Assembly: GCF_001905095.1 (NCBI RefSeq)
Contig: NZ_LWLS01000064.1
Location: 1-64,000, forward strand
DNA length: 64,000 nt
DNA from: Micromonospora sp. CB01531
GTDB lineage: Bacteria; Actinomycetota; Actinomycetes; Mycobacteriales; Micromonosporaceae
Direction of reading: 5' to 3'
Shown: positions 5,055 through 23,927 of the stretch, piece after piece
Numbering within the stretch: the first letter of the stretch is position 1
Layout: each line of letters starts with the position of its first letter
Notes under the pieces: generated by a model
The model's database searches: none
What the model was told of the DNA's origin: nothing
What the model saw: the letters and a program-made list of their open reading frames with translations, nothing else
Program-made: the position numbers and the translations under genes

Positions 5055-6274
5055 TCGACGATCTTGACGTGGTGTTCGACGAGCAGGAGAGGGGGGAGAA
5101 GGGCCGGCACCGGCGCAGCGCGGTACGGAAGCGCAACGGCGGCTCGCGCGGCGGCCGGGGCAAGACGGTCTTCGCCCTCCTGATGGCGCTCGTGCTGCTG
5201 GGCGGCATCGGCGGCGGCGCCTACGTCGGTTTCGACCGGATCCGCAGCTACCTCGTCACCCCCGACTACGACGGCCCGGGCTCCGGCGAGGTGCTGGTGC
5301 AGGTCAAGGCCGGCGACACCCTCACCGACATCGGCAACACCCTCTACGACGCCGGGGTCGTGAAGAGCACCAAGGCGTTCATCGAGGCCGCCGAGGCGAA
5401 CTCGCGCAGCAAGAACATCCAGGTCGGCAGCTACAAGGTCCGCAAGCAGATGAAGGCCGCCGACGTGGTCACCCTGCTGCTGGATCCGAAGAGCCGGGTG
5501 GTCAACGGGGTGACCATCCCCGAGGGCACCATCAGCCTGAACATCTACGCGATCCTCTCCAAGGAGACCAAGATCCCGGTCGCCGAGTTCAAGAAGGCCG
5601 CGGCGGACCCGGAGAAGCTGGGCGTGCCGGCCTTCTGGTTCAAGCGCGAGGACGGCAAGAAGGTCCAGAAGAGCATTGAGGGCTTCCTCTACCCGTCCAC
5701 CTACGAGATCCCGCCGAAGGCCACCGCCGAACAGATCCTGAAGATGATGGTGGACGAGTTCCTCAGGGTCACCCAGCAGCTCGACTTCGTCGATCGGGTG
5801 CAGAAGGAGCGGCAGATCTCCCCGTACGAGGCGCTGATCACCGCCTCGATCGCCCAGGCCGAGGCGGTCGATCCGAAGGATCTGTCCAAGGTCTCCCAGG
5901 TGATCTACAACCGGGTCTACCGCGGCAAGATCGGCTGCAAGTGCCTCGGCATCGACAGCGGCATCAACTACTGGTTCCGCCTGCAGGGCAGGGACCCGAA
6001 GGACTCTGACGACCTGCTGCAGAGCGAGATCAACGACCTGAAGAATCCGTACAACACGCACGATGTGGCCGGCCTGCCGATCACCCCAATCAGCAATCCA
6101 GGTGAGGCCGCGCTCAAGGGCGCGCTGGAGCCGCCGAACGGGGACTGGATCTACTTCATGACGATCGACAAGAAGGGCACGATGGGCTACGGCTCCAACG
6201 ACGCCGAGTATCTGCAGCTCAGGAAGACTATGTGCCAGAACAAGGTGTTGACCGGGTCGAACTGCCGATTCTGA
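5051..6274 (+). CDS. mltG: Endolytic murein transglycosylase MltG
   Basis: Cleaves nascent peptidoglycan strands at the membrane, which is thought to release or terminate them. It has a basic cytoplasmic N-terminus (about 1-37), one membrane helix (FALLMALVLLGGIGGGAYVG, about 40-60) and a YceG-like outer domain. The conserved glutamate lies in TASIAQAE, at about residue 271. A LysM-like segment (VQVKAGDTLTDIGNTLYDAG) precedes the catalytic domain, as in other MltG proteins. The 407 residues are normal. Its start overlaps the ruvX stop. Confidence 0.95.
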   Translation: MIDDLDVVFDEQERGEKGRHRRSAVRKRNGGSRGGRGKTVFALLMALVLLGGIGGGAYVGFDRIRSYLVTPDYDGPGSGEVLVQVKAGDTLTDIGNTLYDAGVVKSTKAFIEAAEANSRSKNIQVGSYKVRKQMKAADVVTLLLDPKSRVVNGVTIPEGTISLNIYAILSKETKIPVAEFKKAAADPEKLGVPAFWFKREDGKKVQKSIEGFLYPSTYEIPPKATAEQILKMMVDEFLRVTQQLDFVDRVQKERQISPYEALITASIAQAEAVDPKDLSKVSQVIYNRVYRGKIGCKCLGIDSGINYWFRLQGRDPKDSDDLLQSEINDLKNPYNTHDVAGLPITPISNPGEAALKGALEPPNGDWIYFMTIDKKGTMGYGSNDAEYLQLRKTMCQNKVLTGSNCRF

Positions 6275-6429
6275 GCGCCGCTGTACCGGTTCCTCTGCGA
6301 CGGCCCGGGAGGCGAGCAGGCGGGCGGGAGCCGGGTCCGGCGGCCGTTCCAGGTCTTCGTACGCGAGCGGTCGGCGAGCGGTTGGTAGCCTCCCCGAGGG
6401 CAGTGACTTCTCCGAAGGGGACCGGGTTG

Positions 6430-7245
6430 GTGACACGACGGGCGGCGGTGGTGGGGAAGCCGATCGCCCATTCGCTCTCCCCGGTGATCCACAACGCCGG
6501 GTACGGGGCGGCCGGGCTGACCGGGTGGTCGTACACCCGGATCGAGTGCGCGGCCGAGGAGTTGGCCGGCCTGGTCGCCGGCCTGGGCCCGGAGTGGGCG
6601 GGGCTGTCGGTGACCATGCCGGGCAAGGAGGCGGCGCTCGCGGTGGCCGACGAGGCCTCGCCGGTCGCCGCCGCCGTGGGTGCCGCCAACACCCTGGTAC
6701 GCCGCCCCGACGGCACCTGGTATGCGGACAACACCGACGTCACCGGCATGGTCGACGTGCTGACCACGGCCGGCTGCGCGGCCGGCGCCACGGTGACCGT
6801 GCTCGGCGCGGGCGGCACCGCCCGGGCGGCGATCGCGGCGGCGGCCCGGATCGGCGCGGCCGACGTGACGGTGGTGGCCCGCCGGCCGGAGGCGATCGAC
6901 GAGCTGCGCCCGGTGGCCCGCGCGGTCGGGGTGCCCCTGGCCGGCGCCGACTGGGACGGCGCCCCGGCGCACGCCCGCGCCGATCTGGTGATCTCGACCG
7001 TGCCGAAGGGGGTGGCCGACCCGCTCGCCGGGCACTTCGACTGGCGGCCGGGGTCCGTCTTCTTCGACGCGCTCTACGATCCTTGGCCCACCCCGCTCGC
7101 CACGACTGCGCTCGCCGCCGGCTGCCGGGTGGTCTCCGGGCTGGACCTGTTGCTGGCCCAGGCCGTTGGCCAGTTTGAGCAGTTCACTGGCGTCGACGCG
7201 CCGGTCGACGCGATGCGTGCGGCGCTGGCTGCGGCACGCGTCTGA
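6430..7245 (+). CDS. aroE: Shikimate dehydrogenase (NADP+)
   Basis: Reduces 3-dehydroshikimate to shikimate. The substrate-site Ser pair is in KPIAHSLSPVIHN, the catalytic Lys in LSVTMPGK, then NTDVTG, and the NADP loop is LGAGGTARAA. The GTG at 6430 is chosen because it places the KPIAHSLSP motif at the usual distance and has a purine-rich site (AAGGGG at 6415-6420) upstream. This gives 271 residues, typical for AroE. The other shikimate genes resume at 20715, so the pathway cluster is interrupted by about 13 kb of glycan genes. Confidence 0.93.
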   Translation: MTRRAAVVGKPIAHSLSPVIHNAGYGAAGLTGWSYTRIECAAEELAGLVAGLGPEWAGLSVTMPGKEAALAVADEASPVAAAVGAANTLVRRPDGTWYADNTDVTGMVDVLTTAGCAAGATVTVLGAGGTARAAIAAAARIGAADVTVVARRPEAIDELRPVARAVGVPLAGADWDGAPAHARADLVISTVPKGVADPLAGHFDWRPGSVFFDALYDPWPTPLATTALAAGCRVVSGLDLLLAQAVGQFEQFTGVDAPVDAMRAALAAARV

Positions 7246-7331
7246 TTCCGGCCGGGCGCCCGACCGGCCCGACCGGAGTGCGGCAGGTCGATACGCTGCT
7301 GCGACAACCGTCGCCGAACCAGGGAGTGCTT

Positions 7332-8234
7332 GTGACCGGGCACCCGTCCCAGCACGACCGTCCGGCCATTCGCGGATCCCGCCGGCCCGTGGTGCTCGCC
7401 GTCCTCGGTGCCGCCCTGGTCGCCGGGCTCGTTGCCCTGGCGCTGCCCCGGGTTGCCGCCGAGGTGCTGCCGGCGGCTCGTCCGTCCGCGCCAGCCCCGG
7501 CCGACCGCCCCGGTACGGACGTACCGGGCTGGCGGCTGGTCTGGTCGGACGAGTTCGACGGGTCGACGGTCGACCGGGCCAGGTGGAACGTCCGGAATGG
7601 CGAGGCGCGCGACATCGACCTCGGCTGCAACGTCGACGACGCGGAGAACGTGATCGTCTCGGGCGGCGTGCTGACCCTCCGGGCGCAGCGGAAGACCACG
7701 GTGTGCGGCTCGCAGCTCCGGCAGTACACCGAGAGCTACCTGGACACCATCGGCAAGGCCTCGTTCCGCTACGGCCGCTTCGAGGTGCGCGCCGAGTCCC
7801 CGAACGGGCCGGCCGACTCGCAGGGGCTGTGGCCGGCGTTCTGGCTGCGGCCGGACGACGGCGGCAAGGGTGAGATCGACGTGGTCGAGCTGCCCGGCGG
7901 TGCGGCGTACCACCGGGCCGCCACCCAGGCCATCTTCTACGACTACACCCCCGTCAAGCAGGACCAGCGCTGGGAGTTCCCGAGCGGGCATCCGGGCGAT
8001 GGCTTCCACACCTACACCACGGAGTGGGAGCCCGGGGTGATCCGCTGGTACATCGACGGCCGGCAGGTCTGGCAGCGGGACCGCGGCACCACGCCGTGGT
8101 TCGACGAGGCCTTCGACAAGCCGTTCAACCTGCGGCTGAACTTCCAGGTCGGGGGCTGGCTCGGCGATCCCGACGCGGCCACCCGTTTCCCGGCCGACTT
8201 CCGGGTCGACCACGTACGCGTCTGGCAGCGCTGA
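7332..8234 (+). CDS. Secreted glycoside hydrolase family 16 protein
   Basis: An endo-acting beta-glucanase or galactanase-like fold. The N-terminal signal or anchor helix (PVVLAVLGAALVAGLVALAL) is followed by a GH16 domain with the catalytic signature EIDVVE (nucleophile and acid/base Glu flanking Asp). WSDEFDG near the start and FRVDHVRVWQ at the end are typical GH16 edges. The GTG at 7332 is chosen over one at 7278 because AGGGAG lies just upstream. The substrate cannot be told from sequence. Its position at the head of a polysaccharide locus suggests it trims or processes that glycan, but this is inference. Confidence 0.88.
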   Translation: MTGHPSQHDRPAIRGSRRPVVLAVLGAALVAGLVALALPRVAAEVLPAARPSAPAPADRPGTDVPGWRLVWSDEFDGSTVDRARWNVRNGEARDIDLGCNVDDAENVIVSGGVLTLRAQRKTTVCGSQLRQYTESYLDTIGKASFRYGRFEVRAESPNGPADSQGLWPAFWLRPDDGGKGEIDVVELPGGAAYHRAATQAIFYDYTPVKQDQRWEFPSGHPGDGFHTYTTEWEPGVIRWYIDGRQVWQRDRGTTPWFDEAFDKPFNLRLNFQVGGWLGDPDAATRFPADFRVDHVRVWQR

Positions 8235-8333
8235 CCGTCAACACCGGCGCCGCCGCGCCCGGACCGTTGCCCGTCGCCAATATCGTGACCGCCAGCGTGC
8301 CGGGCGCAGGGCTGGCACAGGGGAGGACATGAC

Positions 8334-9569
8334 GTGGTGGAGGACCCACGGATCCGCCAGGACGGCCTCGGCTGGGTGAGCCGGGCGATCTTCGGGGAGG
8401 CGCGGCTGTGGCTCGGGGTCGACCCCGGCTCCGCCGTGCCGCCCCCGGGACACCGGGTCGTCGCCCGGTACGCGGTGGTGCCCTCGATGGAGCGGGCCAA
8501 GTTCCTGCTGCCGTTGCCGTCGCGCCGGGTCGGGGCGGCGTCGACGCTGGCGTACAACGCCCTGCGGCCGCCCCGGGTCCGCGTCAACCGGTTCGCCGTC
8601 GGCGTGCTGGCCGGTCTCGGGGCCACCCAGCTGGCCCGGATGCCGGTGCTGACCGTCGCCGTCCCGGCCACCGCCGATCCAGCCGAGCTGCTGCTCACCG
8701 CGTACCTCGCCCGGATCGAGGGCCGCCCCCTGCACGCCGCGATCGGCATCCGCCCACCCGATCCGCACCACAAGCCGACGCTGCAGCTCTTCGACGACCG
8801 GGGCGCCGCGCGGGCGTACGCGAAGGTCGGCTGGAACGAGGCGACCCGGGCGATGGTCCGCGCGGAGGCCGACGCGCTGCGGGAGCTGCCGCGGGGCGCC
8901 GGTGAGTTTCCCGAGGTGCCCCGGCTGCTGCGGGAGGTCGCCTGGGACGACCTGGCGGTGACCCTGGTCGAGCCGATGCCCGCAGGCGTGCGCCGGCTGG
9001 CCCGTCCGGAACGGCCGGAGGTGGCCGCGATGCTCGCGGTCGCCCGGCGCGGTGGCCCGCCGGCCGCGTCCCGGCCGCTGGCCGACTCGCCGTTCCTGGC
9101 CGACCTCACCGCCCGCGCCGGACGCGCCGGTGGGCCGGTCGTCCCGGCGCTGGCGGCTCTCGCCGACCGGGACGGGGCGACCACATTGGAGTTCGGCCAC
9201 TGGCACGGTGACTGGGTGCCCTGGAACCTCGGCACCCACCGGGGCCGCCTCTTCGCCTGGGACTGGGAGAACAGCGGCATCGGGCGGCCGGTCGGCTTCG
9301 ACCTCGCCCACCAGGCGTTCCAGAGTGCACTGTCGCTGCGTGACCGGCCGGTGGCTGAGGCGGCGGGCGAGATGGCGGCGGTGCTGGAACGGTACGGCGC
9401 TGCCTTTGGTCTCGACCCGGCGCGCCGTCGCCTGGTCGCCGACGCCTACCTCGTCGAGTTGTGGCTGCGTAGCGCGGAACTCGCGGCCGGGGGCGGCGGC
9501 TGGAGCAGCAAACTGCACCCCACCCTGCTGCACCTGCTCGCCGACCGGTTGGGGCTGCCGCGAGACTGA
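8334..9569 (+). CDS. APH-fold phosphotransferase-like protein
   Basis: Protein of 411 residues. The C-terminal half carries the aminoglycoside-phosphotransferase/choline-kinase signature: HGDWVPWN (catalytic D293, N298) and the metal-binding DWE (D310) within LFAWDWENSG. The N-terminal ~200 residues are diverged, with no clear glycine-rich loop. The family phosphorylates small molecules or sugars. In a glycan locus, phosphorylation of a sugar precursor is possible but unproven. A GGGAGGA ribosome binding site precedes GTG 8334; an ATG at 8329 is out of frame. Confidence 0.7.
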   Translation: MVEDPRIRQDGLGWVSRAIFGEARLWLGVDPGSAVPPPGHRVVARYAVVPSMERAKFLLPLPSRRVGAASTLAYNALRPPRVRVNRFAVGVLAGLGATQLARMPVLTVAVPATADPAELLLTAYLARIEGRPLHAAIGIRPPDPHHKPTLQLFDDRGAARAYAKVGWNEATRAMVRAEADALRELPRGAGEFPEVPRLLREVAWDDLAVTLVEPMPAGVRRLARPERPEVAAMLAVARRGGPPAASRPLADSPFLADLTARAGRAGGPVVPALAALADRDGATTLEFGHWHGDWVPWNLGTHRGRLFAWDWENSGIGRPVGFDLAHQAFQSALSLRDRPVAEAAGEMAAVLERYGAAFGLDPARRRLVADAYLVELWLRSAELAAGGGGWSSKLHPTLLHLLADRLGLPRD

Positions 9570-9580
9570 GCCGGTCGGTG

Positions 9581-9611
9581 CCCGTTGTCGGGGAGGCGAC
9601 TGACAAACGGG
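9581..9611 (+). terminator. Probable hairpin after the kinase-like gene
   Basis: Inverted repeat CCCGTTGTC (9581-9589) with GACAAACGGG (9602-9611), one bulged base, about 12 bases after the stop. The rest of the 298-bp gap up to 9867 shows no gene. It contains a short CACCAC/GTGGTG palindrome at 9684-9702 of unknown meaning. Confidence 0.4.
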
Positions 9612-9867
9612 ACAAAACGCGGCAGAAGCCGCCGCCCTCGCTACCGCCGGCGAAGAAGCTCCACTAGGGTGTCAGCACTCGATCACCACCTGTCACGTGG
9701 TGGCGGGTTCGATCCGGCCCGGGTGGCGTGGGCGCCCCGGGCCGTGGGCACGGGGAGGTCCGGCCGGTGGCTGGCATGGCAGAGGGCGGGCAGCGGCGGG
9801 CACGCGTCGCGCGGCCCGGGACGGGCGCCGATTCGCCCGCCCGGCGGCCCGACGGCGGTGACCGCCG

Positions 9868-10701
9868 GTGATCCTGATCTACGTCTGCGGGGTGCTCGCC
9901 GTACTCGTGCCGGCGATCCTCGTTCCGTGGCTGGCCAGCCGCTGGGCCCCGGCCGTGGCGGGAAGCCGGGCGGCCGGGCGGCTGCGCGTCGCCGTCGCCG
10001 GCCTCACCGCCGCGTTCGGCCGGCTCGGCGCCGCCGCGGTCGTGCTGCTCGCCGGCTCAGCCGCGGTCGTCGCCGTCTGCTGGCCGCTGGGCGAGGCCCT
10101 GTCCCGGCTCGAACCCCATGTCGACCATCCGGTGTTCGAGTACGTGCACGCGCGGCGGGTCGACGGATGGGCCGACGTCAACTCGTTCGTCACCGCGATC
10201 GGTGACCGGTACCCGCTCAAGTGGGTCACCGTCGTCGCCGCCCTCGTCCTCGCCGTCGCCTGGCAGCGTCGGCGCTGGTGGATGCCGCTTGTCGCGCTGC
10301 CGCTCCAGTTCGTCGTGGAGCAGTACACCCAGGAGATCCTCAAGCTGGTGGTCGACCGGGGCCACCCGCCGACCGACCTGGGCACCTATCCGTCCGGTGG
10401 TTGCGCGCGGGTGCTGATGACCTTCGGCACGATCCTGGTGCTGGCCGCGCTCACCTGGCGGATGCCCCGCCGAGTCCGCGTCACCCTGGTCACCGCGCTG
10501 GCGATGCTGGTCACCGTGGAGGGCTACACCCGCGTCTACGCCGAGAAGCACTGGCTCACGGACGTCGTCGGGGGCTGGATCTTCGGAGCCCTGCTCACCG
10601 GCGTGATGGTGCTCGCCGTCCTGGTGGCGGAAGGGCGGGTCCGGACCCCGGAGCGGTCCACCGCCCCGGCCCCGCGCGACGACGTCACGATCGGCACCTG
10701 A
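9868..10701 (+). CDS. PAP2-superfamily membrane phosphatase-like protein
   Basis: Protein of 277 residues with about six membrane segments. Motif 3 is intact: R222-x5-H228-x3-D232 in TRVYAEKHWLTDVVGG. Motif 1 is recognisable (KLVVDRGHPP, 159-168). Motif 2, normally PSGH, reads PSGG at 175-178, so the leaving-group histidine is missing. PAP2 enzymes dephosphorylate lipid phosphates such as undecaprenyl diphosphate, and some act as transferases. In this locus a role in lipid-carrier recycling or lipid-phosphate transfer is plausible. The PSGG change leaves phosphatase activity uncertain. Confidence 0.8.
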   Translation: MILIYVCGVLAVLVPAILVPWLASRWAPAVAGSRAAGRLRVAVAGLTAAFGRLGAAAVVLLAGSAAVVAVCWPLGEALSRLEPHVDHPVFEYVHARRVDGWADVNSFVTAIGDRYPLKWVTVVAALVLAVAWQRRRWWMPLVALPLQFVVEQYTQEILKLVVDRGHPPTDLGTYPSGGCARVLMTFGTILVLAALTWRMPRRVRVTLVTALAMLVTVEGYTRVYAEKHWLTDVVGGWIFGALLTGVMVLAVLVAEGRVRTPERSTAPAPRDDVTIGT

Positions 10702-10785
10702 CCCGAGCCCGGGCCGCCCGTGACCTCCTCCCGCGGTGGCCCGGAACCGCCCTGCCGCCACCCTTCGAACGGAGTTGGGCAAGAC

Positions 10786-11730
10786 GTGACCACCCTTCTC
10801 GTCGCCTCCACCGGTGGGCATCTCGCCGAGCTGTACGACCTGCGGCCGAGGCTGGGCCTGCGGGAGGACTGCGTCTGGGTGACCTTCGACTCGCCGCAGA
10901 GCCGTTCCCTCCTGGACGGTCAGGAGGTCATCCACATCCCGCCCGCGACCACCCGGGACGCGATGGGAGCGGCGCGTAACCTGCTGGCCGCCCGACGGGT
11001 GCTGCGCGGCGGCCGGTTCACCCGGGTGGTCAGCACCGGCGCCAGCGTGGCCATGTCGTTCTTCGTGCCCGCCAGCCGGCGCGGGCTCGCCTGCCACTAC
11101 ATCGAGAGCGCGACCCGCACGGAAGGCCCCTCGCTCACCGGCCGGTTGGTCGCCTGGGTGCCCCGCACCCGGCTCTACACCCAGTACCCGGGCTGGGTGG
11201 GCGAGCGGTGGCGGTACGGCGGCACCGTCTTCGACGGCTACCGCGCCAGTCGCCTCGCCACCCCGCGCGCGGTGTCCCGGGTGGTCGTCGCCCTCGGCAC
11301 CCAGCACTTCGGCTTCCCCCGGCTGCTGGCCCGACTGGTCGAGGTGCTGCCGCCGGAGGTGGAGGTGCTGTGGCAGGTCGGGTCCACCCGGATCCCCCAG
11401 CTGCCGGCCGGCGCGCGCCCGCAGGTCCCGTACGCGGAGATGCAGCAGGCGATGCGGGAGGCCGACGTGGTGGTGACCCACGCCGGCGTGGGCTTGGCGC
11501 TGGCCGCGATGCGGGCCGGCCGTCGGGCCGTCTACGTGCCGCGCCGGCGCTGCCACGACGAGCACATCGACGACCATCAGGTCGAGCTGGCCTGGGACCT
11601 GAACCGCCGCGGCCTGGTCCTGGCCCGGGAAGCCGACGCCGTGACGTTCGAGGACCTGACGGAGGCGGCATCGTGGACGGTCGAGGCGAGCGGTGCCGTC
11701 GCGCCGTTCCAGTGGACGGACCCGGCGTGA
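10786..11730 (+). CDS. Alg14/Alg13-type glycosyltransferase (GT28-like)
   Basis: One polypeptide appears to join the two halves that are separate in PssD/PssE or Alg14/Alg13. The N-terminal part carries the Alg14-like GGH motif (ASTGGHLAEL, residues 8-17). The C-terminal part has the GT28 nucleotide-sugar site (VVTHAGVGLALAAMRAGR, then DEHIDDHQVELA). The family adds a sugar, often GlcNAc or glucuronate, to a lipid-linked acceptor at the inner face of the membrane. The GTG at 10786 places the Rossmann strand (TTLLVAST) at the N-terminus. It is a candidate for the second sugar transfer in repeat-unit assembly. Confidence 0.83.
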   Translation: MTTLLVASTGGHLAELYDLRPRLGLREDCVWVTFDSPQSRSLLDGQEVIHIPPATTRDAMGAARNLLAARRVLRGGRFTRVVSTGASVAMSFFVPASRRGLACHYIESATRTEGPSLTGRLVAWVPRTRLYTQYPGWVGERWRYGGTVFDGYRASRLATPRAVSRVVVALGTQHFGFPRLLARLVEVLPPEVEVLWQVGSTRIPQLPAGARPQVPYAEMQQAMREADVVVTHAGVGLALAAMRAGRRAVYVPRRRCHDEHIDDHQVELAWDLNRRGLVLAREADAVTFEDLTEAASWTVEASGAVAPFQWTDPA

Positions 11731-11926
11731 GGCCGCTCTGGCCGGACCACCTCGTGCCCGCCTCCACCGGTCGACAACGGAGCCACGTCCACACCGGAGG
11801 CTCGGGACGCGACTCGTACGTCGGGACCGGACCGAGCCGGTGACCGGGCGGACCGGTCGGTTGATGGTGCCGAATGTCCGTTTCCAGCAAACTAGTCGTG
11901 TTCTCACTACCTCATTGGGGGCGCCA

Positions 11927-13864
11927 GTGCTTCACAGAACGTCTCGACAGGTGTGGCGGTGGCTCGCCGTGCTCGCCGCGCCGGTGCTCGCCGTCGGGCT
12001 GCTCGCCGCGCCGGCCCGCGCGGCGGGCCTCACGCCGGTCACCAGCACGCTCACGTCGGCGAATCCAGCGGACGAAACACCGCACGCCCAGAACGGCGAC
12101 ACCAAGGCGTTCGCCGAGATCGGCACCACCGTGTACGTCGGCGGATCGTTCACCTCCGTGAAGGCGACGGGCGGCGCGTGGACCACCCGCAACTACCTCT
12201 TCGCGTACGACCGCACCACGGGCGCGCTGAAGACCGGCTTCAACCCGGTGCTGGACGGCGCCGTGCACGCCCTGGCGGTCAGCCCCGACGGCAAGCTCAT
12301 CGTCGGCGGCGCCTTCGTGAACGTGAACGGGGTCAGCCGCAAGAACCTGGTCGAGCTGGACCCGACCAGCGGCGCGACCGTGGCCAGCTGGGCCGGGCGC
12401 AGCGACGGCGGTCTTGTCCGGCGCACCATTGTGGTCGGCAACAAGCTCTACATCGCCGGAGCGTTCCACTGGGTCAACGGCACCCAGCACTCGCTGCTCG
12501 CCCGACTGGACGCCACCACCGGCGCGATCGACCCGACCTTCCAGATCGACGCCAGCGTGGCCCGGGCCAGCAGCGAGCTGGTCTGGGGTCTGGCGGTGTC
12601 GCCGGACGGCCGTACCCTGGTGGCGGTCGGCAACTTCACCCAGGTCAACGGGCAGGCCCGTAACCAGGTCGTGGTGGTCGACCTGGCCGGCACTCCGGTC
12701 GTGGCGAACTGGAGCACCCAGCGGTACGTGGCGCCCTGCTACGACTGGTCGTTCCCGTTCTACGCCCGGGATGTCGACTTCTCCGACGACGGCACGTACT
12801 TCGTCGTCATCGCCGACGGCGGACGGGGCGACGGGGCGTACTGCGACGCGATCGCCCGGTTCGAGACCGTGGATCGGGGTGCCGGCATCGACGCCACCTG
12901 GGTCAACTACACCGGCACCGACTCGGTGACCTCGGTCGAGGTCACCGACAACGTGGTCTACGTGGGCGGGCACTTCCGCTGGCTGAACAACGCCAACGGC
13001 AACGACTCGGCCGGTGCCGGCGCGATCAACCGGTTCGGCCTGGGCGCGCTGGACCCGATCAACGGCATGCCGCTGGTCTGGAACCCGGGCCGCTCGGGCG
13101 CCCCGGCGGGCACCACCACCTGGGGCCCGATCATGTGGGAGCTGTGGCGCGGCAGCACCGGCCTGTACGCCGGCTTCGACTCCGATGGCGTCGGCAACGA
13201 GTACCACGGCCGGATGGGGCTGTTCCCGCTGGCCGGCGGGCGTACGGTGGCGGCGGTCAACGCCCCGTCCGCCGCGTCGGGCTTCCTCTACGTCTCCTCC
13301 GCCAACGGGCAGGCGACCAAGGTCCCGTTCGACGGCACCACGCTCGGCACCCCGGTCAGCACCAGCCAGCCGAACCTCACCGCTGCCGGAGCGTCCTTCT
13401 CGATCGGCAACAAGCTCTACTGGTCGAAGACCGATGCGAGCGCGCCGAGCGGCAGCTACCTCGATGTGTCGATCTTCTCGGGCGGTTCGGTGGGCGCGCC
13501 CTGGGTGAGCAGCGGCTACAACGACTGGTTCAACGCGGCGACGATGACCGGGGCGTTCTACCTCGACGGCCGGATGTACTACACCAAGTCCGGTACGAAC
13601 AGGCTGTTCTACCGGTATCTGGAGCCGGACGGCTACATCGTCGGCTGCACCGAGTTCACCCTGCCCAGCACCGGCCTGGCCTGGGGTGGGGTGCGCGGCC
13701 TGGCCTGGGTCAGCGGCAAGCTCGTCTACGGCAATCAGGACGGCTCGCTGCGCGCGGTGCCGTTCGACGGGACGGCCGTCGACGGCGCCGCCTCGGTCCA
13801 GCTCGCGGCGGCGGGCGGCGGCGTGAACTGGTCGAGCAGGACGCTCTTTTTCGCCACCTCCTGA
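11927..13864 (+). CDS. Secreted beta-propeller protein with DUF5122-like (delta-60) repeats
   Basis: Protein of 645 residues. A signal peptide (WLAVLAAPVLAVGLLAAPARA) has likely cleavage near residue 32. The mature part is built of repeated units of the form VYVGGSFTSV ... AYDRTTGA, then LIVGGAFVNVNG ... LDPTSGA, then LYIAGAFHWVNG ... LDATTGA, and VYVGGHFRW. This is the pattern of delta-60/DUF5122 propeller blades. No catalytic motif or sortase signal is seen. GTG 11927 has GGGG 7-10 bases upstream. It lies between the glycosyltransferase and Wzz-like genes and may bind or organise the surface glycan (inference). Confidence 0.8.
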   Translation: MLHRTSRQVWRWLAVLAAPVLAVGLLAAPARAAGLTPVTSTLTSANPADETPHAQNGDTKAFAEIGTTVYVGGSFTSVKATGGAWTTRNYLFAYDRTTGALKTGFNPVLDGAVHALAVSPDGKLIVGGAFVNVNGVSRKNLVELDPTSGATVASWAGRSDGGLVRRTIVVGNKLYIAGAFHWVNGTQHSLLARLDATTGAIDPTFQIDASVARASSELVWGLAVSPDGRTLVAVGNFTQVNGQARNQVVVVDLAGTPVVANWSTQRYVAPCYDWSFPFYARDVDFSDDGTYFVVIADGGRGDGAYCDAIARFETVDRGAGIDATWVNYTGTDSVTSVEVTDNVVYVGGHFRWLNNANGNDSAGAGAINRFGLGALDPINGMPLVWNPGRSGAPAGTTTWGPIMWELWRGSTGLYAGFDSDGVGNEYHGRMGLFPLAGGRTVAAVNAPSAASGFLYVSSANGQATKVPFDGTTLGTPVSTSQPNLTAAGASFSIGNKLYWSKTDASAPSGSYLDVSIFSGGSVGAPWVSSGYNDWFNAATMTGAFYLDGRMYYTKSGTNRLFYRYLEPDGYIVGCTEFTLPSTGLAWGGVRGLAWVSGKLVYGNQDGSLRAVPFDGTAVDGAASVQLAAAGGGVNWSSRTLFFATS

Positions 13865-13877
13865 CGGTCCGATCCGA

Positions 13878-13918
13878 CCGGGCGGTCCCGCCACCTCGTG
13901 GCATGGCGGACCGCCCGG
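13878..13918 (+). terminator. Hairpin after the beta-propeller gene
   Basis: Near-perfect inverted repeat of about 15 bp, CCGGGCGGTCCCGCCA (13878-13893) with TGGCGGACCGCCCGG (13904-13918), one bulged C, loop of 10, starting 13 bp after the stop. It separates this gene from the Wzz-to-sulfotransferase operon. Confidence 0.65.
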
Positions 13919-14038
13919 GACGGCTCGGGCCGCACTGCCGCAACCGGTACCCGGCCGGTGACAATGAGACAGTCACCGCGGGTGGTCCCGCTCCGGCCCG
14001 AGGCGGTTCCCATTCCTCATCGCGCAAGGACCTGACTG

Positions 14039-15667
14039 ATGGACGTGACCGACGTCGCCCTCGCCCGACAGCACCCGGTCGGCCTCGTCGAGCTGGCCCG
14101 GGTTCCGCTCCGCCGGTGGCGGACCGTGCTCGGCGTGGCGGCGGCGGTGCTGCTGGCCGTGCTGGTGTACCTGTTCGTGCTGCCGGCGACGTACACCGCG
14201 ACGACAGCCGTGGTGATCCGCCCAGTGGTCACCGACCCGTTCTCGGTGCCCTCCGGCGGCGCCGACCGCGCGGTGAACATGACGGCCGAGAGCGGCATCG
14301 CGACCAGCAACGACGTCATCGACAAGGTCGCCGCCATCACCGGCCGGGACACCAAGGAGGTGGCCGACGCGCTGGAGGTGGAGACCCCGGTCGGCGGCCA
14401 GGTGATGCGCTTCAACTACGCCGCGCACAGCGAGCGGGAGGCGGTCCAGGGCGCCAACGGGGCGGGCCAGGCGTACCTGGACCTGCGCCGGGGTATCTAC
14501 GAGAACCAGCGCGCGGCGGTGCTGAAGTCCTATGACGACACGATCGCGGTGGTCACGGCGCAGCGCACCACCACCCAGCGGTCCCTGCCGAGCCAGGCCG
14601 CGGACAGCCCGTCGCCGCGCACCAGCGCCCTGCTGGACCAGCTGCGGGCGCTGAACGACCAGCTCGCCACGCTCGCCGAGCAGCGGTCCAAGATCGCCTC
14701 CGCGGACCTCAGCCCCGGGTCGATCACGAGCGCGGCCCGCGAGCCGATCCCGTCCAGCCGGGACGCCGCGCCGGTGATCCTCGTCGCGGGCCTGCTCGGC
14801 GGCTTGCTGCTCGGCGCGCTGGTGGCCTTCGCGCGGGAATCCCTGGACCGACGGCTGCGCACCACGGCCGAGGCGGTGGCGGCGATCGGTGCGCCGCTGC
14901 TTGGCACGGTCCGCCGCAGCCGCGGTGGGCACCCCGACGAGCCGGACCTGCGGTACCTCGCGCTCGCGCTGGCCCGCTGGGTGGACGGCCCGCACCGCGG
15001 CCCGCTGGTGCTGCTGTCCTCGTCGGCGAACGACGGACGCGAGCAGGTGACCGGCGGGCTGGCCGCCACGCTCGCCGTCGCCGGTCACGAGGTGCAGCTC
15101 GGCGTCACGCCGGAGAGTCTGGACCGGATCCGGCCGTTGATGCTGGACGCGCAGCGCCGCAACCCGCCGGTGGAGCCGGCGCGCGTCGTCCGGCAGCGGC
15201 AGCCGGCGACCGCACCGGCGGCGGCTGCCGGCGGCACCGCCGGACCCGAAGAGACGGTCGTCATCCCCGCCGTGCGGAAGCCGCGCCCCTACCCGACCGC
15301 GGACGGGCCGAACGGCGAGGTGTATCGGTCCGCCACCAACGAGGAGAAGACCCAGGCCATCCCCGCCAGCCGGCCCGCGGCGGCCGGCGCGGGCACCCGG
15401 ACCGACGGGCAGGAGCTGCGGATCGGCTCCGGCACGGTCCGGCTGGTCGAGCTGAACGCCCTGCCCGGGGACGGCCTCACGGTGCTCGACGCACCGCCCG
15501 CACTGCACGACGAGCGGGGCGTGCGGGCCGCCCGGGAGGGCCGTGCGGTGGTGGTGGCGGCCCGGGACCGGACCCGCATCGCCGAGCTGGTCCGCCTGGT
15601 CGAGCGGCTGCGTGCGGTGGGCGTGGAGCCGTTCGGATTCGTACTGACGGGAGATGGGCGTGACTGA
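14039..15667 (+). CDS. Wzz/chain-length-determinant-like protein with degenerate BY-kinase-like domain
   Basis: Protein of 542 residues. It has membrane helix 1 (VLGVAAAVLLAVLVYLFVLP, about 30-52), an outer Wzz-type domain beginning ATYTATTAVVI, and membrane helix 2 (PVILVAGLLGGLLLGALVAF, about 242-262). A cytoplasmic domain follows that resembles a tyrosine autokinase (BY-kinase). There the Walker A position reads SSSANDGREQVTGG with no GK[ST], but the later LTVLDAPPAL strand is kept. About 110 low-complexity residues lie between these two parts. The family controls polysaccharide chain length with a Wzy polymerase. The next three genes overlap it in series, so it heads an operon. Confidence 0.82.
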   Translation: MDVTDVALARQHPVGLVELARVPLRRWRTVLGVAAAVLLAVLVYLFVLPATYTATTAVVIRPVVTDPFSVPSGGADRAVNMTAESGIATSNDVIDKVAAITGRDTKEVADALEVETPVGGQVMRFNYAAHSEREAVQGANGAGQAYLDLRRGIYENQRAAVLKSYDDTIAVVTAQRTTTQRSLPSQAADSPSPRTSALLDQLRALNDQLATLAEQRSKIASADLSPGSITSAAREPIPSSRDAAPVILVAGLLGGLLLGALVAFARESLDRRLRTTAEAVAAIGAPLLGTVRRSRGGHPDEPDLRYLALALARWVDGPHRGPLVLLSSSANDGREQVTGGLAATLAVAGHEVQLGVTPESLDRIRPLMLDAQRRNPPVEPARVVRQRQPATAPAAAAGGTAGPEETVVIPAVRKPRPYPTADGPNGEVYRSATNEEKTQAIPASRPAAAGAGTRTDGQELRIGSGTVRLVELNALPGDGLTVLDAPPALHDERGVRAAREGRAVVVAARDRTRIAELVRLVERLRAVGVEPFGFVLTGDGRD

Positions 15668-16607
15668 CCACGACCAGCCGGCCGTCCCGGCGGGCGAGGC
15701 GTACCCGCCGGTGACCGTGGTGGTGGCCACCCGGGACCGCCCGGGGCTGTTGGAGCGAGCCGTGGGCGCGGTGCTCGAACAGGACTATCCCGGGCCGGTG
15801 GAATGCCTGGTCGTCTACGACCACACCGACATCCGCCCGCTGGACCTGCCGGTGCCGGACGGCCGGGCACTTCGCTACGTCAACAACTCCCATTCGCGGG
15901 GCCTGCCGGGTGGCCGCAACACCGGTGCGGAGGAGGCGGCCCACGACCTGCTGGCCTTCTGCGACGACGACGACCACTGGCTGCCGGGCAAGCTGCGCCG
16001 CCAGGCGGAGCTGCTGGCCGTCCGGCCGGACGCCGCCGCGGTCAGCTGTGGCATCCGGCTGGAGGGCCCGGGCATCGCCAAGCAACGGCGGCTCGACGCC
16101 ACCGAGGTGACCCTGTCCGACTTCGTTGAGGACCGGATCATGGAGGTGCACTCCAGCACCATCCTGCTGCCGCGCTCCACCTGGGACGCCGTCGGCCCGG
16201 TCGACGAGGACCTGCCCGGCGGCTACGGCGAGGACTACGAGTGGCTGTTGCGGATCGCCGCGCACGGTCCGGTGGTCATCGTGCCTGAGGTCCTGGTGGT
16301 GGTGGACTGGCATGGGGGTTCGTTCTTCTTCGGCCGCTGGGCGATGATCGTCGAGGCGACCCGATACCTCATCGACAAGCACCCCGAACTGGCCCGGAGT
16401 CGGACCGGGCTGGCCCGGCTGCACGGGCAGATCGCCTTCGCCCTCGCCTCCGGGCGGTGCCGCCGGGAGGCGGTCCGGGAGTTGGGCCGGGTGCTCCGGC
16501 TCAACCCGCGCGAGAAGCGAGTGCTGGTGACCGTCCCCGTGGTGCTCGGTCTGCTGTCCGGGGAGCGGGTGCTCCGGCTGGCCCAGCGGACGGGACGGGG
16601 TGTCTGA
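15654..16607 (+). CDS. Glycosyltransferase family 2
   Basis: Protein of 317 residues, inverting GT-A fold. The nucleotide-sugar strand is VTVVVATRDRPGLLERAV, a DHTD segment and the acceptor-side LPGGRNTGAEEA follow, the metal-binding DDDDHW comes at about 103-108, and a GYGEDYEWLLRIAAHG motif follows. It transfers a sugar, probably to a lipid-linked repeat unit. It overlaps the Wzz-like gene by 14 bp and the next gene by 8 bp, which indicates coupled translation. Donor and acceptor cannot be read from sequence. Confidence 0.9.
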   Translation: MGVTDHDQPAVPAGEAYPPVTVVVATRDRPGLLERAVGAVLEQDYPGPVECLVVYDHTDIRPLDLPVPDGRALRYVNNSHSRGLPGGRNTGAEEAAHDLLAFCDDDDHWLPGKLRRQAELLAVRPDAAAVSCGIRLEGPGIAKQRRLDATEVTLSDFVEDRIMEVHSSTILLPRSTWDAVGPVDEDLPGGYGEDYEWLLRIAAHGPVVIVPEVLVVVDWHGGSFFFGRWAMIVEATRYLIDKHPELARSRTGLARLHGQIAFALASGRCRREAVRELGRVLRLNPREKRVLVTVPVVLGLLSGERVLRLAQRTGRGV

Positions 16608-18204
16608 CCGGCCGGCCGGGATCCTCCCGCCGGTGAGCGCCTCGCGACCGGCGGGCGGCGGCGCGTCCGGGTCGCGGCCGATGCCTGCCGCGCCGCTGCC
16701 GGTCTGGCCGCTGACCCTGATGTTCGCCCTGATGCCGCTGTGGTGGGCGCTCGGCGCGTTCTATCTCGGCTGGTCGGTGTTCGGCGTGTTGCTGCTCGCC
16801 CTGCTCGTCGCGCGCGGCCGCGTCCCGCTGCCCGCCGGCAGCGCCTGCTGGCTGCTGTTCCTCGCCCTGGTGCTGCTCAGCGCCAGCCGGCTGGACCGGG
16901 CCACCGCCTACCTCACCTTCGGGCTGCGCTTCGGCTTCCTGGTGACCGCCCTGATCGTCGGCGTGTACGTGCACACCCTGGTGCGGGAGGGCGCCGCCTG
17001 GGAGCGGGTGCTGCGCCCGCTGGGCTGGTACTGGCTCGGCATCGTGGCGCTGGGCTGGCTGGCCGTGCTCGCCCCCACCTTCGCGCTGACCACGCCGGTG
17101 GAACTGGCGCTGCCGTACGCCGTCAGCGGGCAGCGGTACATCCAGGCGCTGACCCACGTGCGGCTCAACGAGTTCAACCCGGTCTCCCGGGCACCGATCT
17201 ACCGCACGGCCGCGCCGTACCCGTACACGAACAACTGGGGCACCGCGTACGCCCTGCTGGTGCCGTGCGTGCTGGCGTACCTGACCTCGGTGCGCACCGG
17301 CCGGTTCCGGCGGGTGCTCTGGCTCTCGCTGCCGCTGTCGGTGGTCCCGGCGTTCCTGACGCTCAACCGCGGCATGTTCCTCGGCCTCGGCGCCGGCCTG
17401 CTCTATCTCGCCCTGCGCGCGCTGCTCCGGGGCAACGCCCGCCTCATCCTCTCCATCGCCGGGCTGGTGTTGCTGGTCTGGATCGTCAGCCTCGTGGTCC
17501 CGGTCCAGGACATGATCAATGCGCGGGTCAGCACCACCGACACCAACGTCGACCGGATGGACCTGTACCTGCGTACCTGGCAGGCGGTCGAGCGTTCGCC
17601 GCTGCTCGGCTACGGCGCGCCGAAGAGCGTCGACACCACGCTGGCCGAGGAGCCACTCGGCACCCAGGGGCTGATCTGGCAGATCCTCTACAGCCACGGC
17701 ATCCCGGCGTTGGTCGTCTTCCTGTCCTGGCTGCTGCTGGCCGCCCGACGGCTGGCCGCTGCGGTATCGCCGGCCGGCTTCTGGCTGAGCACGGTCCCGG
17801 TGATCGCCCTGGTGGTCATTCCGGTGTACGCGTACATCGACCCGAACCTGTCAGTGATCTTCTTCGCCGTCGGCGCCGGGCTGGCCGCGGTCGCCGGGCC
17901 GGTCAACCGGGCCGCGCTCGGCCCGTCCGCCATGTCCCGCCCGGCGCCGTTGCGGTGGCGGACCAGGGGCTTCGGCCGGGCGGCGGTGCCAGGCAGGCGG
18001 AAGCCGTCCGCGCGGGCCGGGGTGGCCAGCGTGCCGCTGCGTACCGCCGTCCCGGCAACCGGCGCGCCCGACCCGGCCGAACACGCGCCGTCGCCGGTCG
18101 TGCCAGAGCCCCGGGCGCCGGCCGACCCGGTCGTTTCGCCACCGCCCGACACCGCCGTGGATCGTCCGGCGCCCGAGGCGCCGCAGCAGGGAGGGACGCC
18201 GTGA
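16600..18204 (+). CDS. O-antigen ligase/polymerase-like (Wzy) membrane protein
   Basis: Protein of 534 residues with about ten to twelve membrane helices in the first ~430. A large outer loop in the middle (AVSGQRYIQALTHVRLNEFN and beyond) and the loop R-x-DLYLRTWQAVERSPLLGYG are typical of the Wzy/WaaL ligase family. The last ~110 residues are Pro/Ala-rich and probably cytoplasmic. In a Wzx/Wzy system it would polymerise lipid-linked repeat units outside the membrane. It starts 8 bp inside the GT2 gene and ends in a GTGA overlap with the flippase gene. Confidence 0.83.
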   Translation: MSDRPAGILPPVSASRPAGGGASGSRPMPAAPLPVWPLTLMFALMPLWWALGAFYLGWSVFGVLLLALLVARGRVPLPAGSACWLLFLALVLLSASRLDRATAYLTFGLRFGFLVTALIVGVYVHTLVREGAAWERVLRPLGWYWLGIVALGWLAVLAPTFALTTPVELALPYAVSGQRYIQALTHVRLNEFNPVSRAPIYRTAAPYPYTNNWGTAYALLVPCVLAYLTSVRTGRFRRVLWLSLPLSVVPAFLTLNRGMFLGLGAGLLYLALRALLRGNARLILSIAGLVLLVWIVSLVVPVQDMINARVSTTDTNVDRMDLYLRTWQAVERSPLLGYGAPKSVDTTLAEEPLGTQGLIWQILYSHGIPALVVFLSWLLLAARRLAAAVSPAGFWLSTVPVIALVVIPVYAYIDPNLSVIFFAVGAGLAAVAGPVNRAALGPSAMSRPAPLRWRTRGFGRAAVPGRRKPSARAGVASVPLRTAVPATGAPDPAEHAPSPVVPEPRAPADPVVSPPPDTAVDRPAPEAPQQGGTP

Positions 18205-19739
18205 CCGGTACGACGGCCGTGCCGGGCGCGCCCGCGACCGCCGGCGAGCGGGAGGTCCGCCGCAGCACGCGCAGCGGGATGGTCGGACTGGCCGGGGCGG
18301 CCGCCAACGGCCTGCTCGGTTTCGTGCTGACCGTGGTGATCGTCCGCGGACTCGGACCCGCCGGCTCCGGCGCGATGTTCACCGCGATCGGCGTCGTCAC
18401 CGTCCTGGGTGCGCTCTGCTGCGCGGGCGCGGACACAGCGCTGGTCTGGGCCCTGCCCCGGCGCACGGCGGGCCGAACCGGCGACGCGGCCCGCCTGTTG
18501 CCGGTCGCGCTGTTGCCGGCGCTGCTGTTCACCGTCGGTCTGGCGGCGGCCGGCGTCGCCCTGCCCGGGCTGCTCGCGCCGGTGTTCTTCGATCCCGGCA
18601 CGACCGGGGGCGAGGAGTTGCTCCGGCTGGCCTTCGCCGGTCTGCCGTTCGTGGTGGCGATGACCCTGCTGCTCGCCGCCGTCCGCGCGGTCCGCCCGGT
18701 CGCGGCCCTGGTCGCCGTGCAGTACGTCCTGCTGCCCGCGGCCCGTCCCGCGCTGGTGCTCGCCGCGGTCGCCGCCGGGGCGGGGGTGACCGCCGTCTTC
18801 GCCGGCTGGCTCGCCCCGGTGCTGCTGGCCGGGCTGGTCGGCGCGGCGCTGCTGGTCCGCCCGCTCGGCCTCGCTGCCGGTGCTGCGCTGAGCCCGGTCG
18901 GCGAGGACTGGCGCGCGCTCTGGGGCTTCGCCCTGCCCCGGGCTGCGTCGGCGGCCATCGACGCCAGCAGCATGTGGCTCACCGTGCTGCTCACCGCCGC
19001 CCTCGCCGACCAGACCGAGGCCGGCGTGATCGGCGCGGTCGGCCGGTACGCCCTCGCCGGACTGCTCGTCATGCAGGGCCTGCGGGTGGCCGTCGCGCCG
19101 CAGCTGTCCCGGTTGCTCGGACAGGGCCGCCGGGTCGAGGCGGTCATGGTCTACCGGCGGATCACCAGCTGGATCATCGCGCTGTCCTGGCCGGGGTACC
19201 TGCTGCTGGCGATATTCGCCCCGGGTTTCCTCTGGCTGTTCGGCGCGGAGTTCACCGCCGGCGCGTCCGCCATGGCGGTCCTTGCGGGCGCCATGATGGT
19301 CAACTCCGGCACCGGCATCGTGCAGACCCTGCTGCTGATGAGCGGCAGCAGCAAGCTGCACCTGCTCGCCGCTGCGACCGGCCTGGTGCTCAACGTCGGG
19401 CTGGCCCTGGTGCTGATTCCCCCCTACGGTGCGCTTGGCGCGGCGGCGGCCTGGACGGCCGGCATCGTGGTGGAGAACGTGATCGCCACGGCGGCCGCCC
19501 GCCGGGTGGTCGGTGAGCCGCTGCTCACACGGGAGGTGCTGCGCGCGGCGGTCGCCGCCGTGCCGGGCACCGCCGTCGTGGCCGGGACAGGGGCGGCGGT
19601 CGCCGGTCGGGGCGCGGCCGGCCTGTTCCTCACCCTCGGGGTGGTGGCGCTGCTCGCCGTCGCGCTGCTGCTGCACCCCGAGGTACGCCAGCGGACGCGC
19701 ACCACCGTGCCCACCCTGTTGGGGCGGCCACCCCGATGA
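18201..19739 (+). CDS. Wzx-type polysaccharide flippase (MOP superfamily)
   Basis: Protein of 512 residues with about 12-14 membrane helices. The N-terminal pattern (RSGMVGLAGAAANGLLGFVL, then VRGLGPAGSGAMFTAIG) is that of the polysaccharide transporter/MurJ group. It would move lipid-linked repeat units across the membrane. GTG 18201 overlaps the preceding stop and has GGGAGGG just upstream. Its place directly after a Wzy-like gene supports a Wzx role over MurJ, whose usual position is elsewhere in the chromosome. Confidence 0.87.
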   Translation: MTGTTAVPGAPATAGEREVRRSTRSGMVGLAGAAANGLLGFVLTVVIVRGLGPAGSGAMFTAIGVVTVLGALCCAGADTALVWALPRRTAGRTGDAARLLPVALLPALLFTVGLAAAGVALPGLLAPVFFDPGTTGGEELLRLAFAGLPFVVAMTLLLAAVRAVRPVAALVAVQYVLLPAARPALVLAAVAAGAGVTAVFAGWLAPVLLAGLVGAALLVRPLGLAAGAALSPVGEDWRALWGFALPRAASAAIDASSMWLTVLLTAALADQTEAGVIGAVGRYALAGLLVMQGLRVAVAPQLSRLLGQGRRVEAVMVYRRITSWIIALSWPGYLLLAIFAPGFLWLFGAEFTAGASAMAVLAGAMMVNSGTGIVQTLLLMSGSSKLHLLAAATGLVLNVGLALVLIPPYGALGAAAAWTAGIVVENVIATAAARRVVGEPLLTREVLRAAVAAVPGTAVVAGTGAAVAGRGAAGLFLTLGVVALLAVALLLHPEVRQRTRTTVPTLLGRPPR

Positions 19740-19752
19740 CGAGGAGGACAGG

Positions 19753-20646
19753 ATGACGACGCTGCGGGACCGGGTGAAGACGCTGGTGCCCGCCCCGGTG
19801 CTAAGCGGGGTGCGCAGCTCGCTGGTGCGCTACGGGGAACGGACCAGCGACCGGAGGCCGCTGCCGGACTTCCTGGTCATCGGCACCAAGCGCGGCGGGA
19901 CGACGTCGCTCTGGCGGTACCTGCTGGAGCACCCCCTGGTGCCACGCCTCTTCCCGGCATGGAACACCAAGACCTCCCACTACTTCGAGGACACCTACTC
20001 CCGGGGCGAGGCCTGGTACCGCTCGCACTTCCCGACCGAGCGGCAGCGGCGGGCCCTGGAACGCCGGCACGGCGGGCCGACCCGGGTGGGGGAGGCCGCG
20101 CCGCTGTACATGTTCCATCCCCTCGCTCCGGCCCGGGTGGCCGAGCTGATCCCGGCGGTGAAGCTCATCGTGCTCCTGCGTGACCCGGTGGAGCGGGCGT
20201 ACTCGCACTGGAAGGAGCGGCGCACCGAAGGCGTGGAGCCGCTCGGCTTCGCCGAGGCCCTCGCGGCCGAGGAGGAGCGCACGGCGGGGGAGCGGGAGAA
20301 GCTGATCGCCGACCCGACGTACGTCAGCAACGCCTACGACTGGTACAGCTATCGGGCCCGGGGCCGGTACCTGGAGCACCTGGAGCCGTGGCTGGACCGG
20401 TTCGACCGGGAGCAGCTGCTCATCCTGCCCAGCGAGACGTTCTACCGGGAGCCGGCCGCCGCGTACGCGCGGGTGCTGGACTTCCTCGGGCTGCCGCCGT
20501 ACCAGCTCGACCGGTACGAGGTGTTCAACGACCGGCGCAGCAGCGCCATGGACGCCGCGGTGCGCGACGAACTGACCCGGTACTACGCGCCGTACGACGG
20601 GGCCCTCGCCGACCGCCTGGGCCTTACCTTCGACTGGGGACGCTGA
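19753..20646 (+). CDS. PAPS-dependent sulfotransferase
   Basis: Protein of 297 residues with the two classic sulfotransferase sites. The 5'-phosphosulfate loop is [12 protein letters not shown] (K46 onward) and the 3'-phosphate site is [13 protein letters not shown] (R143, S151). It resembles heparan-type carbohydrate sulfotransferases in motif spacing and has no membrane anchor, so it would act in the cytoplasm. ATG 19753 has an ideal GAGGAGGA site. It is 13 bp after the flippase gene and closes the glycan operon, which suggests sulfation of the repeat unit (inference). Confidence 0.88.
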
Positions 20647-20714
20647 CCGTCCGCAGGGCGGGACGCGGTGGGCGGAGCATCGGGGCGGACACCGGGCGTG
20701 ACAGACTGACCGCT

Positions 20715-23927
<3,213 letters not shown>

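Follow-up and report, generated by a model that had tools for sequence, protein, structure and literature searches.

A predicted sulfated-polymer cassette between aroE and aroC of Micromonospora sp. CB01531, homologous to wps-1 of Actinoplanes

Ten open reading frames (ORFs), all on the + strand, lie between aroE and aroC at positions 7332-20646 of a 64,000-nucleotide stretch of the 9.24-Mb genome of Micromonospora sp. CB01531 (hereafter the window, to which position numbers refer). They probably form a cassette that builds a sulfated surface or extracellular polymer assembled by Wzx and Wzy, a diverged homologue of the cluster wps-1 (AMIS_7280-7380) of Actinoplanes missouriensis, for which a sulfated polymer was proposed in June 2026 (PMC13390465). 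An initial annotation of the window had suggested a sulfated exopolysaccharide of a kind rarely described in actinomycetes. The first part of this claim remains the best reading, strengthened by the match of the sulfotransferase to a heparan sulfate 3-O-sulfotransferase (3-OST), by a gene for synthesis of 3'-phosphoadenosine 5'-phosphosulfate (PAPS) and by homology to wps-1, with sulfation itself predicted; the second part needs updating because of the A. missouriensis proposal (PMC13390465).

Within the open-licence literature, only the A. missouriensis papers come close to a prior description, and the claim of sulfated polysaccharides in actinomycetes has so far rested on a single cluster from a single species. 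The window locus suggests a family-wide trait, adds a second cassette and points to a priming enzyme. Systems of the wps-1 kind are already known; new here are the presence of a priming gene inside the cluster in related genera, the either-or pattern of two cassette classes in Micromonospora and a candidate source of PAPS. The sulfated-polymer question also becomes testable in this genus, in which sister strains differ in the class of cassette present, the sites being clean. Bacterial sulfated polysaccharides have been said to be reported only in cyanobacteria (PMC13390465), a statement that is too strong in view of the sulfated capsules of marine Vibrio (PMC11641403) and Cobetia (PMC11766843).

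Gene content and proposed pathway

The ten co-oriented genes were located where the initial annotation had placed them, and its family assignments were matched by Pfam or NCBIfam, the aminoglycoside phosphotransferase (APH) fold by a structure model and Wzx below threshold. All ten reading frames are open in this strain. The features are:

6232..7245, + strand: aroE on the left flank (coordinates of the longest ORF, with the true start probably near 6436; aligns with aroE of relatives)
7332..8234, + strand: GH16 hydrolase, probably secreted (Pfam GH16, 72 bits; hydrophobic N-terminal segment 20-38)
8334..9569, + strand: kinase-like protein of APH/choline-kinase fold, WpsI-like (homologous to the class B kinase; no Pfam family assigned)
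9868..10701, + strand: PAP2-family membrane protein (Pfam, 37 bits)
10720..11730, + strand: Alg14/Alg13-like fused glycosyltransferase, PssD+PssE- or WelK-like (Pfam GT28 C-terminal domain, 41 bits; NCBIfam)
11864..13864, + strand: DUF5122 beta-propeller, probably secreted (Pfam, 70 bits; hydrophobic segment 33-51; ATG chosen, longest ORF from 11693)
14039..15667, + strand: Wzz-type co-polymerase (Pfam Wzz, 29 bits, cut-off 25.5; two hydrophobic segments)
15654..16607, + strand: GT2 glycosyltransferase (Pfam, 51 bits)
16600..18204, + strand: Wzy-type polymerase (Pfam Wzy_C, 42 bits, cut-off 31.7; about 10 hydrophobic segments)
18201..19739, + strand: Wzx-type flippase (MatE/Wzx, 17.7 bits, under the cut-off of 24.9; about 10 hydrophobic segments)
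19753..20646, + strand: PAPS sulfotransferase of heparan-sulfate 3-OST/NDST type, class A (Pfam sulfotransferase, 50 bits)
20709..21893, + strand: aroC, right flank, start approximate (91-99% identical in relatives)

The last five genes overlap or abut as had been described: the overlaps at the first three junctions measure 14, 8 and 4 bases, and the sulfotransferase ATG (19753) follows a gap of 13 bases. Models of PssD/PssE, Cps14F/G and WelK match both halves of the fused glycosyltransferase with scores well under the curated cut-offs (in NCBIfam, PssD at residues 26-148, PssE at 188-302 and WelK at 27-306).

From these identities we propose that a polyprenyl-phosphate sugar transferase encoded elsewhere in the genome would prime undecaprenyl phosphate. 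The Alg14/Alg13-like enzyme would add the second sugar, as its PssD, PssE and WelK relatives do, and the GT2 enzyme the third. The sulfotransferase would then sulfate the lipid-linked repeat in the cytoplasm, drawing PAPS from a fused ATP-sulfurylase/APS (adenosine 5'-phosphosulfate) kinase, after which Wzx would flip the unit, Wzy would polymerise it and the Wzz-like protein would set the chain length. Outside the cell the secreted GH16 enzyme may trim or release the polymer and the beta-propeller may bind or organise it, and the kinase may phosphorylate a sugar or the repeat unit. The acceptor sugars and the role of the PAP2 protein are likewise presumed.

Homology to wps-1 and the site of the product

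Sporangium formation or spore release suffers when any wps-1 gene except wpsD, or AMIS_7390, is deleted, and the authors called the AMIS_7390 phenotype unexpected (PMC13390465). Loss of AMIS_7390 may damage sporangia through PAPS shortage for the wps-1 sulfotransferases.

We define as class A the sulfotransferases that are 69-100% identical to that of the window, and as class B more distant ones (about 42-48% identity among the rows listed; six loci were opened, L184-L188 and L210). The class B loci hold homologues of the window sulfotransferase (43-46% identity), kinase (30-33%), Wzy (29-31%), Wzx (32-36%) and, where found, Wzz (28-31%). One of them, L187, reads GT2, sulfotransferase, GT26, DUF4262, GH26, methyltransferase, Wzx, sulfotransferase, kinase, Wzy, Wzz and ATP-sulfurylase/APS kinase. 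Some additional ORFs separate DUF4262 from GH26. Ten of the named genes were identified by Pfam, the kinase and Wzz by tblastn. Its content is that of the published wps-1 list plus AMIS_7390, the comparison having been made with the publication rather than with the A. missouriensis genome. With identities of about 28-46% to class B loci for the shared sulfotransferase, kinase, Wzx, Wzy, Wzz and a GT2, the window cassette is a diverged homologue of wps-1 and not a copy of it.

As published, wps-1 shares with the window cassette Wzx, Wzy, Wzz, a heparan-sulfate-type sulfotransferase (WpsH), the kinase-like WpsI, a GT2 enzyme, a glycoside hydrolase and the bacterial family. A second sulfotransferase, GT26, a methyltransferase, DUF4262 and GH26 are specific to wps-1, none of them being matched by Pfam among the window's ten genes, whereas the propeller, GH16, PAP2 and the Alg14/13-like enzyme are found only in the window when set against the published list. 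wps-1 adjoins an ATP-sulfurylase/APS-kinase gene, whereas the window cassette adjoins aroE and aroC. A DUF5122 propeller fused to malectin domains, which is not listed for wps-1, was seen in the class B cluster of another Micromonospora genome, G252 (L210:15125-18199).

The product might instead be a sulfated glycopolymer fixed to the wall, resembling teichuronic acid, rather than a released exopolysaccharide. Products of Wzx/Wzy systems can be capsular or wall-linked, the host is Gram-positive, and the secreted propeller and GH16 enzyme could act at the wall. Among the ten genes, however, Pfam matched no wall ligase of the LytR-CpsA-Psr (LCP) type, and the related Actinoplanes polymer was placed in the sporangium matrix by its authors as a working hypothesis (PMC13390465); we regard a wall-fixed product as unlikely.

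Two further systems resemble the proposed pathway by description. Synechan of Synechocystis is also termed a sulfated exopolysaccharide, in a paper that contains the terms Wzy and sulfotransferase (PMC8205485), but the system is cyanobacterial and the likeness is one of description. The imp cluster of A. missouriensis likewise concerns a Wzx/Wzy-type matrix polysaccharide in the same family, with a hydrolase gene, gimB, adjoining; it differs in having three GT4 and one GT2 enzymes and three membrane proteins, with no sulfotransferase in its seven genes (PMC12691653).

Sulfotransferase and source of PAPS

The best match of the sulfotransferase among solved structures is heparan sulfate 3-O-sulfotransferase 3A1 (PDB phmmer, E 6e-22 over query residues 34-261). 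At least 20 of the 21 class A and class B sequences retain the PAPS-loop motif G..R.GTTSL and the Glu that aligns with the 3-OST catalytic position. An N-terminal signal or membrane anchor was not seen in the protein.

The window genome carries a single APS-kinase gene, fused to ATP sulfurylase, and the same fusion is present in all 30 genus genomes tested; to judge by its sequence, the fused enzyme can supply PAPS to the sulfotransferase. There are two PF01507 genes, by eye one CysD and one CysH with the CC...CxxC pattern typical of APS reductases. Cysteine synthesis should thus not need PAPS, which would be needed for sulfation only.

Since Sulfotransfer_1 is a broad family and the product is only predicted, the sulfotransferase could be a passenger with a secondary metabolite or a lipid as its substrate, which would leave the polymer unsulfated. 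We consider this improbable. In class A loci the enzyme has kept at least 69% identity beside Wzx even where GT2 and the Alg14/13-like enzyme fell to about 45% or less, a homologous sulfotransferase adjoins Wzx in class B, in a third Micromonospora cluster (class C, below) and in one cluster from outside the family, and the closest solved relatives act on glycans.

Kinase, PAP2 and Wzz-type proteins

The AlphaFold2 model of the kinase-like protein (mean pLDDT 92.7) has APH(3')-IIb as its top Foldseek match (E 6e-6), and VIA-align ranks ethanolamine and choline kinases first (Z up to 15.4). Residues K164, E178, H291-G-D293, N298, D310 and E312 are invariant across 29 sequences, the catalytic residues being kept in class A and class B alike. 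As modelled, the protein has an APH/choline-kinase fold with intact catalytic residues.

The PAP2 protein reads PSGG in all 21 of 24 rows in which the motif was readable (15 distinct loci), at a position where PAP2 enzymes usually carry PSGH; it may therefore not be an ordinary phosphatase. The Wzz protein ends in a degenerate tail resembling bacterial tyrosine kinases (BY-kinases), with pieces of NCBIfam polys_exp_MPA1 and EpsG. No P-loop is present in the translated window protein, and a simple regular expression matched one in 3 of 83 related Wzz rows, leaving 80 without. A tyrosine pseudokinase for exopolysaccharide has been reported in Myxococcus (PMC12004946).

A block present or absent at a fixed site

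The initial annotation had proposed comparing this slot across Micromonosporaceae, and the comparison reveals a unit that is either present or absent in relatives. Of the 29 genus members without a class A sulfotransferase match, 18 were sampled at the aroC region and compared with the window by blastn. On the left the match breaks off at 7215-7275 in all but one of the 18 (at 6630 in L202), and on the right it resumes at 20637-20657 in all of them (at 20648 in 11). These breakpoints delimit a cassette of about 7238..20647 on the + strand, comprising the ten genes and nothing more, so that a 13.4-kb block has been gained or lost as one at a fixed site. Its presence or absence as a unit rules out a chance run of unrelated genes. 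In the closest relative without the cassette (aroC 99% identical) aroE and aroC are 92 bp apart, and the distance is 45-425 bp in 12 of the 18 genomes, in agreement with the earlier description of the two genes as neighbours; in six genomes 1,056-7,210 bp separate the aroE-side and aroC-side matches. Genes in these regions, in the class B loci and in the primer-bearing loci below were called with a home-made program that missed some. Most cassette genes also travel together in other genera, with neither aroE nor aroC in the fetched flanks.

In G285, fragments of the kinase and GT2 genes between aroE and aroC (L245:2140-2982) point to a decayed cassette. Elsewhere the slot holds other genes, namely an ORF of 2041 residues in G264 (L204:2163-8288) and an antiporter-like protein, by eye, in G225 (L207:10375-11616), and it may be an insertion hot spot.

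Priming transferase

The initial annotation left two possibilities, a priming enzyme encoded elsewhere or a different role for the PAP2 protein. This is largely answered by loci from other genera, 14 of 16 of which carry a PF02397-type priming gene in or beside the cluster, and by an orphan PF02397 relative elsewhere in the window genome. The Spirilliplanes locus L153 reads GH16, kinase, PF02397 transferase, Alg14/13-like enzyme, propeller, Wzz, GT2, Wzy, Wzx and sulfotransferase, that is, the order of the window with the primer at the PAP2 position. In L152, one of the Actinoplanes-type loci, a primer, broken into two frames there, is followed by PAP2, the Alg14/13-like enzyme and the further genes. 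PAP2 as the primer is ruled out, as PF02397 takes its place in the former arrangement and both occur in the latter.

The window genome has four PF02397 genes, three of which were included in a priming-transferase tree of 40 rows. L004, whose protein had been translated in a wrong frame for the comparison with the cluster loci, was left out of the tree, and its rows in that comparison carry no meaning. Of these three, only L002 (G000:C71:45826-47319) joins the superclade of cluster primers (100/100); no glycan genes were seen near it by eye. The primer of the window cassette would be encoded elsewhere in the genome, this orphan being the most likely candidate.

Several points weigh against the proposed sulfated-polymer pathway of the wps-1 kind. 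Neither the window slot nor any other of the 58 Micromonospora loci that were fetched has a PF02397 gene. The orphan primer sits on a long branch and is not nested among the cluster primers, and it is matched in 60 of 61 genus genomes, many of them without class A, so that it may act in several pathways. The scheme covers no more than three glycosyltransferase steps. The Pfam score of Wzx is weak (17.7 vs 24.9 bits), its assignment being supported by position, by the hydrophobic segments and by homology to a class B protein (L187:8694-10184) that passes both Polysacc_synt and MatE. Micromonospora is not known to make sporangia, and the wps-1 phenotype is thus not directly transferable. Chemical evidence of sulfate exists for neither the window cassette nor wps-1, as the authors themselves state for the latter (PMC13390465).

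That the locus is a relic, non-functional in this strain for want of a priming enzyme, is very improbable: the slot lacks PF02397, with four such genes elsewhere, and the PAP2 motif is altered, but the ten frames are all open, loci of a second layout (type II, below) at the aro slot likewise have no priming gene there and are widespread, and the genuinely decayed cassette of G285 looks quite different.

Two cassette classes in Micromonospora

Among 116 genus genomes, 87 carry class A, 26 class B, none both and three neither (Fisher p = 6e-23, with kinship ignored). A kinship-aware test gave four independent contrasts, three opposite, none the same and one without difference (p = 0.25), on a marker tree built from one gene, the orphan primer, that may differ from the species tree; it covers 60 of 61 genomes (none of the matches in G226 reached the threshold, and the match in G255 is partial). 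Outside the genus, class-B-level matches also occur in at least 13 of the 30 genomes with class A. With so few contrasts and such matches beside class A outside the genus, the exclusion of A and B is a lead rather than a result.

The window genome (G000) and G252, its sister in the marker tree, carry opposite classes, and each shows the empty site of the other's cluster. The aro insertion is missing from G252, and the window genome joins the class B flanks within two bases (L150:17505-17507; G000:C83 about 230505-230507); in G252 the same flanks, 94-95% identical, enclose about 19.6 kb including the class B cluster (L210/L242; G252:C124). The class B site is a junction of a CBS-domain and an aminotransferase gene in the two genomes examined.

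The counts and the reciprocal empty sites would fit one polymer excluding or replacing the other, rather than lineage history, yet the kinship-aware contrasts and the class-B-level matches outside the genus argue against it, and we find such replacement doubtful. More broadly, we offer tentatively, as somewhat less than an even chance, that Micromonospora almost universally needs one sulfated surface polymer, made by either of two interchangeable homologous cassettes at two sites. Gain of one would lead to clean loss of the other, one conserved PAPS synthase would serve whichever is present, and sulfated polymers would be ordinary in the family.

Distribution and layouts in the family

Of 200 family genomes, 60 have class A, half of them (30) in the genus and half (30) outside it, and 179 have a related sulfotransferase (E <= 1e-20), some of these without an assigned cluster type. 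Among 298 genomes sampled across the order, each of the 35 class A matches falls within Micromonosporaceae, the nearest sequences outside being 49-51% identical.

Layouts were compared in named loci, the best 80 of 106 relatives; the sulfotransferase query began one codon early. The aro slot holds two layouts. In type I, that of the window, GT2 stands between Wzz and Wzy; in type II the Alg14/13-like enzyme is encoded as two adjacent pieces and GT2 follows the sulfotransferase. Of the 58 Micromonospora loci, 53 have aroE or aroC within reach, as do all five Salinispora loci and one unclassified Micromonosporaceae locus. The five Micromonospora exceptions comprise three short pieces, L079 (no aro gene in the 10 kb to each side) and L099 (no aro gene over 10.9 kb downstream). 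Neither gene was found within the fetched flanks of the 16 loci from other genera, where kinase and GH16 often diverge from the remaining genes.

Among 26 type I/III loci, 14 have GH16, one a GH26-like gene and 11 no match, and among 53 type II loci 39 have a GH26-like gene, two GH16 and 12 no match, many loci stopping short of the expected hydrolase position and three being entered twice under different identifiers (L044/L152, L048/L153 and L045/L189). To judge by these matches, the statement that the kind of secreted hydrolase follows that of the glycosyltransferases is only partly true.

A third Micromonospora cluster, class C (L211:8782-11177 in G264), has Wzx next to a sulfotransferase; more of its genes look sulfotransferase-like by eye. 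In G318, from another family of the order (L247:7481-11770), genes for Wzx (40% identity), a sulfotransferase (49%) and a propeller (38%) are adjacent.

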